From Alternaria dauci (taxonomy: Eukaryota; Ascomycota; Dothideomycetes; Pleosporales; Pleosporaceae), in contig NC_091275.1 in NCBI RefSeq assembly GCF_042100115.1, positions 1,798,001 through 1,862,000 of the forward strand: DNA of 64,000 bases, given 5' to 3'. Below are positions 46,976 through 62,717 of this stretch, piece after piece. Each line of letters opens with the position of its first letter. Within the stretch, counting starts at the first letter, position 1. The position numbers and the translations under genes are program-made. Below the pieces are notes generated by a model. The model was not told the DNA's origin. It saw only the letters and a list, made by a program, of their open reading frames with translations, and searched no databases.

Positions 46976-49055
46976 CTACCACGTCTCCTGCCTATATCTT
47001 CCACTCTTTTCCATGCCCAATAGATAAGCCTCTGCACCCTCTCTATCCATGCTTCCATGTTCTTGGAAAGCTTCGATGAGCGCTTCCCGTATCGCTTGGG
47101 GCATTTTGCCCGACGAGCCGCAGATGTACAGGATGCCGGATTTGCGAAAGAGATGCGAGAAGACAAGTGGGGAATGTTGTCGAATAAGATCTTGAACATA
47201 GACCTTTTGCCGCTGTTATGTTGTTAGTAAGGATTCTCAGCGATGGGAAATGGATACTTGCTTGGTCTCTGGAAAATGCCGCAAAGACTTCTAGAGGTAC
47301 ACCAGATGATTGCAGTTGCGCCCATTCCTCCTTGAAGAAGTAGTCTGATTCGGCATTGCGACAGCCGAAGAAGAGCAGATCCTTGACATTTTCATTGTCC
47401 TCCTGCGCGTGACCATTTAGAAGTTTCTTGTGCTCTTCGCGCCAGTGTTTGCGTTGATATATCAGCGCACGCATGGGTGCCACACCTGTCCCTGGGCCCA
47501 CCATAACAACCGGTTTATCGAGTTCATCTCTGCTCACACCGAGCCCGCCTCGCGAAAGCGTGACCGTAATTTCTTGTCCTGCGGTGAGCGAAGCGATGTA
47601 GCGCGTCGCAACACCTTGTCTTATTCTTTTGATGATTGTCTTATACTTTACTATCGCAATCAAAAGCTCAATCTCTGTCTTCTTTTCTAGCTCCGCGGTC
47701 GGGTTCATCGCACTTGCGATGCTGAATTGGCGACCGCGCAGAGTAGGGATGATACCGCACGCGCGCTGCCAGGGTATTTTCACAGATTCAAACTCCTGCA
47801 AGACCTCTAAGATGCTGCGGCGTGGACGTGTGGTGTAGTCGTATAGTTCATCCAGATATTGAGGGTCGGTAAACTCGAGTAATCTTGCTTTGTGGAACTC
47901 GTCACTCGTGTAATGCGCGAGCTGGGCGAAGAACGACCTTCGGGGTATAGCCATAATGTCGAGATGACTGGTCAAAAGCTGTCTCAAGGTTGTTGTACCA
48001 CCTGGATCCATATTAGGAATAGGTAGGGTGGTGCTGGAGGGTGTCGATGAGGATGAAGGGACAAAGCGGAGTGGTACGTCAGCGATGGAGGTCCAGCCCA
48101 TACATTCGAGGAAGAGCGATACATCAGAGGGAAAGTTCTTGGGGTAGATTGTGAGTACATCGCCCGGGACATATGGATGGGACTCTGGTATTTCGAACTT
48201 GATATGTCGCACGTCCTGCCAGTGGGTTGTCGGCGTGACTCTCTCAGTGCTTGCAATCTTCGCAGTAAGTCCGCCGGGTATGCTAAGAAGATCTGGTGGA
48301 GGATTCTCAGGCACGTCGCTGTTCAACCCTGACGCAGATCCGGCATTGGGTGAGGATGCTGCACCATCTTCCACAATCTCAAGCACCCATTTCGGGTCTA
48401 GTAGAACGTCGTCCGGTATCGGCTCAATGCCATTGGGGAGCGGGTAAGAACCAAGTAGATGTTGGCGAAGTTTTGTTGACCATGGCAGGAAGGAGCCATC
48501 GATGCTTGGAATGGTCAGACATGCGCTGAGAAGTGGGATGGAGTTTTGGCTGTATGGAGAAGCATTGATGACATTGACATACCCGTCTGGATGCTGCTCG
48601 TCTGACTCGCCGCGATGGCATATTGGCTGGGCTCCGAGCTGGACGAGCCGGTTGTACAGCTTGCGATGCGCCCAGTTGTACTTTGGATAGGACGTGTCAC
48701 CAAGACCAAAGGATGCAAATCTCATCTGGTGCAGGCATCCTGGGCGCAACCGAGCACTTCGGATGGCTTTCCAGAACTTCTGGCTGTTGGGTGGTAGTTC
48801 GCCCTGGCCGGTGGTGGAGATGGCGATGAGGACGACATGATGTTGCAGCAGCTGCCTCTACCAAGAGTCAACCATGGTTCCTTGGACGCAGCATGGCCGC
48901 GAACATACTAGAGTGATGGCGTTGAGCTCAGCGACTTGGGTATCGAATCTCAGACGCTCAGCGACCCTTCCCATTTCCTCAGCCACATCCTGCGCGTTGC
49001 CTGTTTCGGAGCCGTAAACGACCAGGGCGCGGCGCGCTTGGGGTGCACTCGACAT
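46976..49055 (-). CDS. TAH18: NADPH-dependent diflavin oxidoreductase Tah18
   Basis: Exons 48909-49055, 47262-48857 and 46976-47212 give 659 residues, all joined in phase 0. The first intron is 51 bases. The second (49 bases) has a GC donor (gcaagt), a ttactaac branch and an acag acceptor; it must be used because only it continues FSRDQ into RQKVYVQDLI. Flavodoxin domain: ALVVYGSETGNAQDVAEEM, AISTTGQGELP, FGLGDTSYPKYNWA. FAD domain: RRSILEVLQEF and GRQFSIASAM. NADPH domain: VGPGTGVAPMRALI, FFGCRNAESDYFF and YICGSSGKMP. Tah18 passes electrons from NADPH through FAD and FMN to the Fe-S protein Dre2, the first step of cytosolic Fe-S protein assembly. Confidence 0.93.
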
Positions 49056-57061: not shown

Positions 57062-59030
57062 TCTCTGCGTTGTTACGTCGTTATGTTTGCTTCTGTATGT
57101 ATATTCTGATACTACACTGGGGGGTGGAAAAGTTTCGTTTGGAGTTCAGGCAAACGATACTTGTACATTTGACTCAATATAACTATTTGACATTCAGTGA
57201 CTTCTCTAACTGTTCTAGTCCAACCAGTCTGACATCGCTGCGACGTCACGAGCCTGATTGTCCAGCTGCCTTGACACTATTCACGATGCGTGGAGAAAAT
57301 AGTTGGTGCCCAAAGCGATCAAGATGGTTGTACTGTACGGAAAGTTGATGTACACGTCGGAACAGCTAACGATTGGTCCTGACAAGGCTGTCAAGACCCT
57401 GGAGCGTATGGAGCTAGATTGATGTGCGAACCAAAGAAGAAGCAAGGGCAAAGCTCCGAGATGAAAAGCAATAAGATATTACGGGAAAATCTTCCGCTGG
57501 TTATCCGCACATCTTACCGCCAATCCCTTCTTTCATCTGGTGTTGCGTACGCGGTGTAGATTGAGTTCCGCAACGCCATCTTGGTGAGTATTGGGAAACT
57601 TTGGGGAAGTAGCTGAGGGGTAGCACGTGAAAGCACTGACCACCTTGCGGTAGGAGACCGCGCCTGAGGTGTTTCATCACATAGCTACATCTGCAGCATT
57701 GAAGCTTCGACTTTACCATGGCAACCTCCGCAACTCTAAAGACATGTAAGGGGTTCACGCAGATCATCTGGATGGCGATGCGGGGCGAGCACTATGACCT
57801 GTATGCGCAGCTCCCGGCAGCAAAGCTTCCGGACAGCATAGCTCATTGCACCCCTGACCCAGTGTTTTGGAGTGTATGCTAGATGGTCAGATCATCGTAG
57901 TGTAAAGCAAGGTATTTGCATTGCTTGAGTCTAGATAGCTAGATCAACCATCACACAGGCTGCACTCGAGAGAAAAGAGCGATATCTTGCCGGCAACAAG
58001 AAGGAGTGACGCGAAGCACATCAGTACTCTGCTTGCACAACATGGGAATGCGTTCGCATCGCAGGCCGGAAAACCGCAAAGTAGCATATCGGCGAACTGG
58101 ATTGTGCTCCATCATGGCATGTGGCATAGCGGCCCGCGCTAGATACACATTAGTGAGGCAGATCTCCCCTATTTCGTTAGCAGCGTACATCACGAAGTAC
58201 GAGTCGAGTTGGGCCCTCGTCGCGCTAGACAGAGACTGCCGATGATGTTGAAGCATTTTTCCGAGCACACAAGATCGACACCCTGGGTGCACATCTCCCG
58301 AGAGACGTAGATCGTCAGGGGGCAGCCTTGCAGTGCAGACGGGAGGCATGTCAAGGAATCAAGTATTGCAAGACGTGAAACAGCAAGCCTCACGATGCTG
58401 TACACGCAACCTCGCTCGCAGGGACGAATTCCTGTCCCAACATCAAGTCCCCTACCAAAGCTAACAGGCACATTGACATCTGTGGCGTAACACAACTTGC
58501 TCGAGCCTCCCAAGCAGCGATCAAGAAGCTCGACGATGGGGATCCACCTATAGACTTGCGCTAAAGACGAGACCATAGATCCCCTTTACCCTAGTATTCG
58601 TGGATCATACTCCGGAACAGCAAATCTTACTTGCCAGGACTACCAATAAGCTTTCATAGTGCCCGAAGTGTTAGAGCCTCACTGGAAACGGCAACATTGG
58701 CTAACAGGTGTACGAACATCAACAATGCGTGCAGCATGACATGACTAGGCAAGCTGTAGTCCCGTCGTTCTCACCATGGTATAGCCTGATGTAGTGACTA
58801 CTGCAGCGTGCCTGACGCTCTAGCGTACAGTAGATTGTCGATCGATCAGACAAACTCAATCGGCATATCAAATTGGCGAGCGTCTGAATAGACATATAAG
58901 CCACCCTTTAGACCACCAAACAGGCATTATCCAACTCATCACATTCATTTTCGTTCATTACCAACCACTCACTCCATCTTAGAGTTCTAATAATCGTCCA
59001 TCCTCGTCGACTATCAACAAACCCATCAAA
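57062..59030. other. Intergenic region
   Basis: 1,969 bases with no supported gene. Several 80-130-codon minus-strand frames exist (about 57501-58576) but show no motif or consistent splicing. The last 140 bases are the promoter and leader of the secreted repeat protein. Confidence 0.4.
58893..58900 (+). promoter_or_regulatory. TATA box of the secreted repeat protein gene
   Basis: The sequence catataag lies 131-138 bases before the ATG at 59031, followed by a C/A-rich leader. Position and sequence fit a TATA element with about 100 bases of leader. Confidence 0.5.
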
Positions 59031-59933
59031 ATGCGTTCCACCATCGCCGTATCCGTCTTTGCGCTCTCCGCCTCGGTTCTTGCAGCCCCTACTCCCCAGC
59101 CTGCCGGTCTCACCAACCTCGTTGATGGTCTTACCAGCACTGTCGGCTCTATCACCAACCCCAGCGTTGGCAGCAACAACCAGGTCGCTGGCAACGGCAA
59201 CGGAAACTCTGTTGGCAATGCCAATGTTAACAACAACGAGATCGGTACCGGCAACGCTGCTGTTAACGGCAACAACTTGAATGTCAAGCTCCTCGGTGGC
59301 ATCCTAGGAACCCCTAAGCGTGGTCTTCTTGACACGGTCAATGGCCTCCCGGTTGTCGGATCCATCGCCGGTGGCCTTACGGGCAGCAGCAAGGGTGGTC
59401 TGCTCAATGGCGTCACAGCCGGCAGTACCACCGGCTCTCTCACTAAGGGCCTTCCTGTCGCTGGCAGCCTCGTCGGCCGTGGTCTTACCGACAGCCTTGA
59501 CCTCAGCAAGCTGAGCCAGATCCAGCTTCTCTCTCTCCTCGGCCAGGTCACTGGCGCTCTCAATACCAACGCTGCCACTTCCAGCGTCACTGGAACGACC
59601 AAGCCCGTCACTGATGTCGCCAAGCCTGTCACTGGAGCCGTCAAGCCCGTCACTGGTGTCGCTGGAGGTCTCGTCAGCACTGGCGACCTCTTGAAGCGCC
59701 AAGGTAACCTCCTTAGTGGTGTCACCGGCACCGTCAATGGTGTAGTTGGCACTGTTTCCAACACTGCTGGAGGTGCCGTTGGAGGACTCAAGCCCGTCAC
59801 TGGAGCCGTCAAGCCCGTCACTGGTGTCGCTGGAGGTCTCGTCAGCACTGGCGACCTTTTGAAGGGCCAGGATAACCTCATCGGAGGTGTCACAGGCACT
59901 GTCAACGTTGCTCCTGTGATCAAGTCAGTCTAG
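59031..59933 (+). CDS. Secreted Gly/Val/Thr-rich protein with internal repeats
   Basis: A single exon of 300 residues. A signal peptide (STIAVSVFALSASVLAAP) is followed by an Asn/Gly-rich part (NQVAGNGNGNSVGNANVNNN, about 50-80) and a Val/Gly/Leu/Thr-rich part. No cysteines are seen. A segment of KPVTG units plus GVAGGLVSTGDLL occurs twice (about 195-222 and 253-278). Lys-Arg pairs (TPKRGLL, LLKRQGN) are possible Kex2 sites; the second is lost in the later copy (KGQ). The architecture resembles fungal cell-wall or surface-associated proteins, or Kex2-processed repeat peptides, but I recognise no family. The neighbouring TATA box and biased codon use suggest strong expression. Confidence 0.8.
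   Translation: MRSTIAVSVFALSASVLAAPTPQPAGLTNLVDGLTSTVGSITNPSVGSNNQVAGNGNGNSVGNANVNNNEIGTGNAAVNGNNLNVKLLGGILGTPKRGLLDTVNGLPVVGSIAGGLTGSSKGGLLNGVTAGSTTGSLTKGLPVAGSLVGRGLTDSLDLSKLSQIQLLSLLGQVTGALNTNAATSSVTGTTKPVTDVAKPVTGAVKPVTGVAGGLVSTGDLLKRQGNLLSGVTGTVNGVVGTVSNTAGGAVGGLKPVTGAVKPVTGVAGGLVSTGDLLKGQDNLIGGVTGTVNVAPVIKSV
59621..59696 (+). repeat. Coding direct repeat, copy 1
   Basis: 76 bases nearly identical to 59789-59864 (three or so differences), in frame within the secreted repeat protein gene. Such high nucleotide identity indicates a recent duplication or ongoing gene conversion. Confidence 0.9.
59789..59864 (+). repeat. Coding direct repeat, copy 2
   Basis: The second copy of the 76-base repeat, 168 bases downstream of copy 1. 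It differs at a few positions and is followed by ggg where copy 1 has cgc, replacing Arg with Gly in the dibasic pair. Confidence 0.9.
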
Positions 59934-60353: not shown

Positions 60354-61145
60354 TTATGAATCGAAGAAGTACTTGTCCGCAGGTCTTTCGACCATGACCC
60401 TCTGCCAGAGTTCGTTTTCGCCGAGGCTCTTCATCATCTCGGTAATGTTCTCTTCCTTTGACCCGTTCGCAGTGACCTTGGTGCTTTAGAGTTTGACTCA
60501 TTGTAAAGTGACGACTACTTACGTCGATCAGGATGCCGTGCTGACGATAGGCTTCTTCCACGGGTATGGTTTCTCGTTCGTACTCAGCAAAACGTCGCTC
60601 AAACTTCTCATCACTGTCGTTGCTATCCCGAGCTCGAGCTAGATATCTAGCTTTGGCGTTTTGCTTGCTGACTCGCAGTGACAGTACAATGTCTGGTTTC
60701 AGATTCGTGTTCGCTCCTCCTGCGGTTGGTACATCTCTAGAGAATGGCCATATACTCCGAGATTCCAGTTGTTCTTTACTTCTTGGAAACCCGTCGACTA
60801 GGATTCCTGCCTTGCAAGGCTTCTCGGCCGATGCGTCTTCGATTGCGCGACTTACGAACGGGTTCAAGTCTTCCGAAGTAAGGAAGCCTTGGTTGTCAAG
60901 TTTGTCCTGGATCTTGACAGCAAGTGGACTGTCACGATTCTCGCGCATCCAGCTGCGGAGACTATCACCGACAGAATAGTGTACCAGATTGCAAGCTTCA
61001 GCTAGGTGCGTGCAGAGACTCCCTTTCCCCGCACCGGGTGCACCTAGACATGGGTTACTACCGAGGTAATAAGTTTAAATCAGCAGTCAGGGAGTATACC
61101 TAGGACAAGAATGATGGCAAAGGCGCGGGGCTTGGATGCTTGCAT
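60354..61145 (-). CDS. Nucleoside-monophosphate kinase, UMP/CMP-kinase-like
   Basis: Exons 61100-61145, 60523-61043 and 60354-60476 give 229 residues; introns are 56 and 46 bases. The Walker A loop GAPGAGKGS is at 16-24. The NMP-binding region has HYSVGDSLRSWMRE and VDGFPRSKEQLE. The short-lid signature of UMP/CMP kinases appears as ARDSNDSDEKFERRF followed by EYERETIPVEEAYRQHG. There is an insertion of about 15 residues after DGFPR (WPFSRDVPTAGGANTN) compared with housekeeping enzymes. The C-terminal splice at 60477 replaces a nonsense-like read-through frame with VTANGSKEENITEMM, the normal family end. It should phosphorylate CMP or UMP with ATP. No mitochondrial signal is obvious. It is divergent from the viperin gene across 453 bases, suggesting a shared promoter and a supply of CTP precursors. 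Confidence 0.85.
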
Positions 61146-61598
61146 GGTACTGACTGGTGACTATGACGTGAAGACGACTTGTAGTTCCTATGCAAGACGA
61201 CGAATGCAGGACAACCAAATGATTATCGCGATGCAGTAGGCCTCCCAGGAGACCGAAAAGTGACGCTATACTCTCGTGGAGACGATTGCAGGACAGCGCT
61301 TGGCAGCGTGAAGAAGGTACTGAAGTTGTCGCTTCCGTGCTGTCCCGCTGACAGTCAGTGCTGATTGCCGTTTGTGGCAAGTGCCCTTGTCTTGTCTGCC
61401 AAGGTAATTGTTGTGAGCAAGCGCGAAAGCGATTCGTCGCTGTCAAAGTGTCCACAATTCCTTGGTCCTGCTTATCCACCCCAACCACTACTGGAAAACA
61501 CCACACCCCGCACCGTCCAATACTTCCCTTTTGAAGAGTTCAGCTACTTTATAGCACTTGGTCTCAACTGTGTACATCTACTAGGACAGTCGTCAGTC
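61146..61598. promoter_or_regulatory. Bidirectional promoter of the kinase-viperin pair
   Basis: 453 bases separate the two divergent start codons. A tttatag sequence at 61548-61554 lies about 45 bases before the viperin ATG. The frame in front of viperin is open but its content is not viperin-like, so the start at 61599 is preferred. Confidence 0.5.
61548..61554 (+). promoter_or_regulatory. TATA-like element upstream of viperin
   Basis: tttatag, 45-51 bases before the viperin ATG. Weak evidence: position and composition only. Confidence 0.3.
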
Positions 61599-62717
61599 AT
61601 GGTCCTTCTATCGCTACTGTCCAAAATTCCCGCACTTCGGTTCTTCGTCGTCATAGTTCTCGCGACATGCGCCTACATTGTCTACAAACAGTCTGTACCA
61701 AAGACAGTCGAGAATCTTCACCATGAAAGCGTCGTCCACGAAGTTCCCACCGAAAGTCCAATTCCCAAGACAGAAGAAGCATTGGACCCATCTCAGCCAC
61801 CAGATGCTCCTGTTTCGGTCAACTACTTCCCATCTCGGGAGTGTAACTACAAATGTGGCTTTTGTTTCCACACTGAGACCAGCTCTTACATTCTAAAAGA
61901 CGACAAGGCCCGTCAAGGCCTGAAACTACTGAAAGAAGCCGGTATGCGCAAGCTCAACATCGCCGGTGGAGAACCATTTCTTCACCCCAAACTTCTCTCT
62001 AGTTTGATCCGCTACTGCAAAGAGGATCTGGGTGTCGAAAGCATCAGTATCGTCAGCAATGGTAGCAAGATCACCGAGAAGTGGATGCAGGAGAATTCAC
62101 AGTGGCTGGACATTCTGGCTATCTCCTGTGACTCTTTCAACGCTCAAACAAATGTCAAGATTGGGCGCGGTGACGACGGAAAGAACGCTGACCGGTTGTT
62201 TCAAATCGCAGACTGGTGCCGGACCTACAACGTCAAATTCAAGCTCAACACTGTGGTCAACATTTACAATTGGGACGAAGACATGGTCGCCAACATCGAG
62301 AAGCTAGCACCATTCCGATGGAAGGTCTTCCAGTGCCTCATCGTTGCAGGTGAGAACGACGACGAAACCCGAAAACGTGACGCAAGGAAGTTTCTGGTTA
62401 CTGAAGAGCAATGGAAAACCTTCTGTAATCGACACAAGCACCTTCCATGCTACGTTCCCGAGGACAACAACTCCATGGCTAGTAGTTATCTATTGCTTGA
62501 TGAGTATATGCGCTTCATGGACAAGGGCGAGGGTATGATGACGACGAGTGATTCCATCTTGGATGTTGGAGTTATGAGGGCGATGGAGCAGATTGTTTGG
62601 GACAAAAAGTCGTTCGTCGAACGTGGAGGTATCTACGATTGGGGCAGAGCAGACATGAAGCCGGCTAAGGAGGTGAGCTGCGGTACTGGTCTCAACTTGA
62701 AGGAACTGGAGTTCTAG
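61599..62717 (+). CDS. Viperin-family radical SAM enzyme (RSAD2 homolog, ddhCTP synthase-like)
   Basis: A single exon of 372 residues. An N-terminal hydrophobic helix (ALRFFVVIVLATCAYIVYK, about 12-30) should anchor it to the ER or lipid droplets, as the amphipathic helix does in animal viperin. The radical SAM cluster motif is C82-x3-C86-x2-C89 in ECNYKCGFCFH; SAM contacts include NIAGGEPF (about 120-127), SIVSNGS and AISCDSF. Other viperin-specific stretches are NVKIGRGDDGKN, RWKVFQCLIVAGEN, CYVPEDN, SYLLLDEYMRFMDKG, SILDVGV and RGGIYDWGRADMKP. This density of matches separates it from other radical SAM families. Viperins convert CTP to 3'-deoxy-3',4'-didehydro-CTP, an antiviral chain terminator. 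It ends in Leu-Glu-Phe, fitting the Fe-S assembly client tripeptide. The start was chosen at 61599 because the frame upstream has no viperin-like content. Confidence 0.93.
   Translation: MVLLSLLSKIPALRFFVVIVLATCAYIVYKQSVPKTVENLHHESVVHEVPTESPIPKTEEALDPSQPPDAPVSVNYFPSRECNYKCGFCFHTETSSYILKDDKARQGLKLLKEAGMRKLNIAGGEPFLHPKLLSSLIRYCKEDLGVESISIVSNGSKITEKWMQENSQWLDILAISCDSFNAQTNVKIGRGDDGKNADRLFQIADWCRTYNVKFKLNTVVNIYNWDEDMVANIEKLAPFRWKVFQCLIVAGENDDETRKRDARKFLVTEEQWKTFCNRHKHLPCYVPEDNNSMASSYLLLDEYMRFMDKGEGMMTTSDSILDVGVMRAMEQIVWDKKSFVERGGIYDWGRADMKPAKEVSCGTGLNLKELEF

Follow-up and report, generated by a model that had tools for sequence, protein, structure and literature searches.

A viperin gene paired with an ADK-family nucleotide kinase gene in Alternaria dauci and other filamentous ascomycetes

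The vip1-kin1 locus

The analyzed window, a stretch of 64,000 nucleotides of the Alternaria dauci genome, carries a viperin gene (vip1) and a nucleoside-monophosphate kinase gene (kin1) that are placed head to head, with an ATG-to-ATG gap of 453 bp; this distance is the 453-base gap given in the preliminary description, whose coordinates and strands for both genes were right. The features of the pair are the following (window positions):

61599..62717 (+): vip1, viperin gene, 372 aa, one exon; ORF, profile and structure matches
vip1 product: hydrophobic N-terminal stretch, CxxxCxxC, C-terminus LEF; motif and hydropathy
61146..61598 (no strand): stretch between the start codons, 453 bp, candidate shared promoter
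61291..61297 (+): GGACAGC, suggestive motif only
61339..61345 (-): GGACAGC, suggestive motif only
60354..61145 (-): kin1, ADK-family nucleoside-monophosphate kinase gene, 229 aa, three exons; gene model, Pfam ADK, AlphaFold2 fold
61100..61145 (-): kin1 exon 1; gene model
61044..61099 (-): kin1 intron 1, phase 1, in the first glycine codon of the P-loop; gene model
60523..61043 (-): kin1 exon 2, with the P-loop and the catalytic arginines; gene model, alignment
60477..60522 (-): kin1 intron 2, phase 0, before V190; gene model
60354..60476 (-): kin1 exon 3, including the stop codon; gene model

The vip1 gene is an uninterrupted ORF, whose product scores 253.8 bits against the NCBIfam model NF038283 (viperin family antiviral radical SAM protein), above its cut-off of 180, and 391.4 bits (E 3e-117) against TIGR04278 (viperin), under that model's own cut-off of 450. 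Solved viperins (6b4c, 7n7i, 5vsl and others) are matched with E values from 1e-105 to 2e-100; the cysteines of the CxxxCxxC motif are C82, C86 and C89, and the GGEP motif is intact. The ORF, the NF038283 model, the structure matches and the two motifs confirm that vip1 is a complete viperin homolog, as had been claimed for this interval of the plus strand.

By eye, the genes next to the pair encode a urea-amidolyase-like protein and a secreted protein with repeats, and no further nucleotide-related gene was seen beside it. A repeat-rich, secreted-looking protein with KPVTG repeats is encoded at 59031-59933 (+), and a 300-aa ORF of equal length lies on the opposite strand, at 58979-59881. Another gene, at 47043-48725 (-), about 13 kb from vip1, was read by eye as a Tah18-like diflavin reductase, presumably of the cytosolic iron-sulfur assembly pathway; viperin needs this pathway.

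The coding sequence of kin1 starts with the ATG at 61145, is interrupted by introns at 61099-61044 and 60522-60477 and ends with the stop codon at 60354-60356; the resulting model is identical to a public A. dauci protein (P0001, ACET3X_005163). The product has the fold and the P-loop of the ADK/UMP-CMP short-form nucleoside monophosphate kinases and scores 73.6 bits against Pfam ADK (PF00406, cut-off 26.8). It falls under the curated cut-offs of every adenylate and UMP/CMP kinase model listed, including the UMP-CMP kinase model TIGR01359 (80.5 bits, cut-off 207.6), and also under that of the dTMP kinase model TIGR00041 (17.9 bits, E 0.002, cut-off 83.25). Its AlphaFold2 model fits UMP/CMP kinase and adenylate kinase equally well, and the sequence matches are likewise tied. 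A CMPK2-like, thymidylate-kinase-type identity was considered and is ruled out by the Pfam ADK assignment and the weak TIGR00041 score; the ADK/UMP-CMP type proposed beforehand agrees with the Pfam assignment, the profile scores and the fold matches.

Family catalytic positions are kept among the 98 entries of the kin1 family: K22 in 90 (six others being gaps), R103 in 95, R166 in 96, and R148, R152 and R154 in 97 each. URA6 and adenylate kinase 1 share about 25% identity with kin1. The A. dauci URA6-like gene (C8:713 kb) can be told apart from the kin1 family by two features: it has A where V or I is found in 93/98 kin1 entries, and it is without the W-P-F insert of the family (W in 88/98), which is missing also from the second kinase described below. 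In the AlphaFold2 model of kin1 the insert adjoins a low-confidence loop. Three of the four homolog-derived alignments served only for searches and fold.

A second viperin-kinase pair in A. dauci

The A. dauci genome contains two viperin loci and six PF00406 loci, and each viperin has one of these six as its divergent neighbor. The second viperin (vip2; C9:2467824-2468786, -) is 52% identical to vip1 over the alignment, and a second ADK-family kinase gene (kin2; start at C9:2468996, +) diverges from it at a distance of 209 bp, so that the head-to-head orientation is present at both loci. If 12,000 genes are assumed, a given viperin would have an ADK neighbor by chance with a probability of about 5e-4, and both viperins would with one of 2.5e-7.

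The two kinases share only 31% identity; nevertheless, two introns are common to their genes, in the same place and phase: one interrupts the first P-loop glycine codon (phase 1) and the other precedes the valine of LI[DE]V (phase 0), the last intron of kin2 being the counterpart of kin1 intron 2. The URA6-like gene has an open frame through both sites. A third ADK-like kinase (C9:1662856-1663368, -) is encoded in one open frame, is 34% identical to kin1 and lies on a very long branch; no viperin neighbor was recognized in the stretch fetched around it (L007).

The motif GGACAGC occurs once per strand in both intergenic stretches, of 453 and 209 bp (L011:554-560 and 481-487 at the second pair), a sharing that 43 of 1000 random segment pairs equaled or surpassed and that is a weak lead only. 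A shared promoter in the 453-bp stretch is plausible.

Other genes were noted around the second pair. An AAA_28 P-loop gene (PF13521, 84.9 bits; L010:8455-9135, -) lies downstream of vip2, and downstream of kin2 there is a gene weakly resembling thiamine triphosphatase (E 3.5e-4, no Pfam hit; L011:1536-2174, +). A gene model of A. panax (P0131) fuses vip2 with part of the AAA_28 domain; the fusion may be an annotation artifact and indicates that the two genes adjoin in that species too. About 3 kb from the vip2 cluster, L010:5958-6371 (+) encodes a Tc5-type transposase DNA-binding domain (PF03221), a sign of mobile DNA nearby.

The vip2-kin2 link was seen in A. dauci and A. panax only, in the latter from an equal-sized 5.4-Mb contig, and close relatives of kin2 are few among the best 120 of 271 matches. 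Two of the first 30 entries of the kin2 search lie on contigs equal in size to that of a viperin entry: P0016 is from A. panax, the species of the matching viperin, and P0248 (2220 bases) was rejected as a coincidence, as it comes from another source than its matching viperin and groups with URA6-like entries.

Linkage and co-inheritance in other fungi

Homologs were taken as the best 120 of 1097 kinase matches and the best 120 of 3705 viperin matches, clustered at 90% identity, which hides members of the clusters. In all nine other genomes that show the tags of both genes under one prefix, presumably belonging to Dothideomycetes, Sordariomycetes and Orbiliomycetes, these locus tags are consecutive:

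Diatrype stigma, 363/362
Diplodia seriata, 3138/3139
Arthrobotrys conoides, 9223/9224
Orbilia oligospora, 5949/5950
Monosporascus ibericus, 7822/7823
Monosporascus sp. CRB-8-3, 2364/2363
Fusarium poae, 11787/11788
Fusarium sambucinum, 141/140
Daldinia eschscholtzii, 9266/9265

Recurvomyces, where the contig sizes agree and the tag prefixes differ, was left out of the nine.

A second line of evidence comes from contig sizes, two entries being placed on one contig when the sizes are exactly equal. At least 33 of 119 viperin entries (one of the 120, P0163, has no contig and was dropped) lie on a contig equal in size to that of a kinase entry, against 4 matches over 40 offsets when sizes were shifted up or down by 1 to 20 bases. 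In each of the 25 named matches the two entries come from a single species, and the other 8 matches are metagenome entries; one of the 33 pairs a kin2-type with a vip2-type protein, both from A. panax. Of the matched contigs, seven are shorter than 20 kb and four of these shorter than 6 kb; where contigs reach megabases, sharing one is by itself weak evidence of linkage.

In the viperin tree, built by a quick method with one distant outgroup entry, all the viperins linked to a kin1-type kinase are found in one clade (SH-aLRT 99): 33 of its 84 entries are linked, A. dauci included, versus none of the 37 fungal entries outside (Fisher p 8.7e-7, uncorrected for relatedness). The other 51 entries of the clade are without a kinase match among the matches listed, which is not readable as absence; the kinase list is centered on the kin1 query and may thus lack diverged kinases from other species. 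In the kinase tree, from which entries shorter than 180 aa were left out, the 98 kin1 entries form one group, and the kin1 and kin2 families stand apart from the URA6-like and other adenylate kinase entries (100/100, with long-branch warnings, which concern chiefly the A. dauci kinase at C9:1662856).

The two trees mirror each other. Kinase and viperin distances across the 25 named linked pairs are correlated with r 0.77, a value that was not reached by shuffling partners within classes (r at most 0.66 in 2000 tries). Furthermore, joins against taxonomy are common to both trees: Colletotrichum (Sordariomycetes) is joined with Byssothecium and Massariosphaeria (Dothideomycetes), with support of 94/86 for the kinase and 99/96 for the viperin, and Lepidopterella (Dothideomycetes) is placed with Monosporascus, Daldinia and Diatrype (90/90 for the wider group in the kinase tree, 97/92 for the join with Monosporascus in the viperin tree). 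These common joins point to joint inheritance of the two genes, either through transfer or as an ancient duplicate. In places the trees conflict: the kinase of meta4076 is placed with Fusarium (97/96), its viperin with other metagenome entries (99/94).

Some species depart from the pattern. A. panax has a kin1 protein (P0002) and no vip1-like protein among the best 120 of 3705 viperin matches, and Arthrobotrys conoides carries a further kin1 copy whose partner is not among the matches listed. Both A. alternata vip1 proteins among the matches listed (P0182 and P0190) are shorter and have F for the first cluster cysteine and SGEP for GGEP, and they have the look of copies in decay. The best 120 of 1097 kinase matches include no protein of A. 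alternata; the pattern would fit joint loss, which absence among the matches listed does not show.

Overall, the kinase gene is adjacent to the viperin gene beyond one genome. Conservation of the neighbor in related fungi, which had been set beforehand as a point on which the proposal could fail, is borne out by the consecutive tags, the contig matches, the single clade and the mirrored trees; taken with the two A. dauci pairs and the contig-size control, the same evidence excludes local chance as the explanation of the pairing. The second pair and the conservation across classes go beyond what the preliminary description had observed.

Possible function of the pair

Viperin genes with a linked kinase are known from animals and bacteria, and the fungal version with an ADK-type kinase is a variant of this arrangement. 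In humans, RSAD2 and CMPK2 are adjacent genes, and CMPK2 has been implicated, together with viperin, in the formation of ddhCTP (PMC12181374); a CMPK2-like kinase gene adjoins 15% of bacterial viperin genes (PMC11249213). Prokaryotic viperins (pVip) likewise lie next to a kinase or are fused with one; the A. dauci pair differs from them in its head-to-head order and in the introns of the kinase gene. The vip1 protein matches both PADLOC models of this type ("Viperins associated with kinases" and "Viperin-kinase fusion"), and kin1 has no PADLOC match at E 0.01. The animal RSAD2-CMPK2 pair also has a nucleotide kinase gene beside viperin; however, CMPK2 is thymidylate-kinase-like and kin1 belongs to the ADK/UMP-CMP family, and thus the vip1-kin1 pair is not the animal CMPK2 arrangement, which suggests that the fungal unit was assembled separately. 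According to Shomar et al. (2024, Nat Ecol Evol), eukaryotic viperins reportedly partner with genetically linked genes, notably nucleotide kinases, and this work may already cover the fungal viperin-kinase pair.

A viperin-family enzyme of a fungus has been described in Thielavia terrestris (TtRSAD2/SAND), a radical SAM nucleotide dehydratase that acts on CTP and UTP and for which the main text names no kinase partner (PMC9642334). Formation of ddh products from CTP or UTP is reported for the viperin family, with a fungal enzyme among its members (PMC9642334). Among the papers listed in a search of mostly open-access literature, none was recognized as describing an ADK-type kinase beside a fungal viperin, the one paper combining viperin, adenylate kinase and fungi being a macrophage microarray study. 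Viral contigs yielded two weak viperin relatives (30 and 33% identity) and 29 ADK-like loci. Among six viperin-related loci found in genome contigs, only one (L057, from a Leptospiraceae MAG, 39%) covers most of viperin, and by eye no kinase is present among the 5 ORFs listed there.

The reading preferred here, to which a probability of roughly 0.55 is given, is that the pair constitutes a two-gene module of filamentous ascomycetes, in which viperin is accompanied by a dedicated, divergent ADK-family kinase for pyrimidine monophosphates. It is drawn from the linkage of two intact genes, the restriction to one clade, the mirrored trees and the co-inheritance that they indicate, the kept catalytic residues and what is known of the two families. 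For the substrate of kin1, the co-regulation of the genes and the antiviral role of the pair, we infer the following scheme. The vip1 protein, probably held at a membrane through its N-terminus, would convert CTP and/or UTP to a 3'-deoxy-3',4'-didehydro (ddh) chain terminator; kin1 would phosphorylate CMP or UMP, refilling the substrate pool where viperin works, or, alternatively, would phosphorylate the ddh-monophosphate and return it to the pathway leading to the active triphosphate. By analogy, either supply of pyrimidine nucleotides or recharging of ddh-monophosphates is the most likely task of kin1. Against this reading stand the equally good match of kin1 to adenylate kinase, the 51 entries of the viperin clade without a kinase among the matches listed, the kin1 of A. 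panax and the extra copy of Arthrobotrys, which both lack a listed partner, and the conflict of meta4076.

A bolder form of this reading can be put forward only tentatively, namely that these fungi possess an antiviral cassette of their own, independent of CMPK2, with a kinase specialized for pyrimidine or ddh-pyrimidine nucleotides and transferred from class to class as a unit, of which the second pair, with its AAA_28 and triphosphatase-like genes, would be a larger version.

Virus defense may not be the main use of the pair, which could instead form a metabolic or natural-product unit, whose ddh-nucleotide or nucleoside tunes the metabolism of the fungus itself or hits competitors. No fungal viperin with a demonstrated part in virus defense, and no paper on viperin in defense against mycoviruses, was found in the literature consulted; for the Thielavia enzyme a role in natural-product formation has been suggested, and for human viperin roles in metabolism (PMC9642334), and the patchy joins across classes would fit as well. 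This explanation is nonetheless rather unlikely, as by eye no transporter or other biosynthetic gene lies beside the pair at the first locus and members of the viperin family act against viruses in animals and bacteria (PMC11249213).

Still less probable is linkage without a shared task, in which a common promoter locks a housekeeping kinase to viperin or slow gene shuffling has left it there. Head-to-head neighbors can, as is generally known, stay linked for regulation alone, and the nearest known relatives of kin1 are housekeeping kinases; however, the genome has a URA6-like gene elsewhere, the second viperin, itself diverged, is likewise flanked by a diverged kinase, and the linkage spans three fungal classes, with both trees sharing joins against taxonomy. 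Finally, a protective or recycling kinase, which shields host polymerases from ddh-nucleotides instead of feeding viperin, would leave the same genetic pattern, and the weakly thiamine triphosphatase-like gene next to kin2 could hydrolyze triphosphates, but a monophosphate kinase works towards triphosphates and not away from them, and by eye no such triphosphatase gene is present at the first locus, which makes this the least credible of the explanations.

The pair bears on why viperin genes so often keep an adjoining nucleotide kinase. With a clade in which the kinase is outside the CMPK2 family, and with a genome that holds two diverged pairs, it can be asked which activity is repeatedly joined to viperin by selection; moreover, the pair provides a defined two-gene candidate for virus defense in filamentous fungi, which is testable by deletion.
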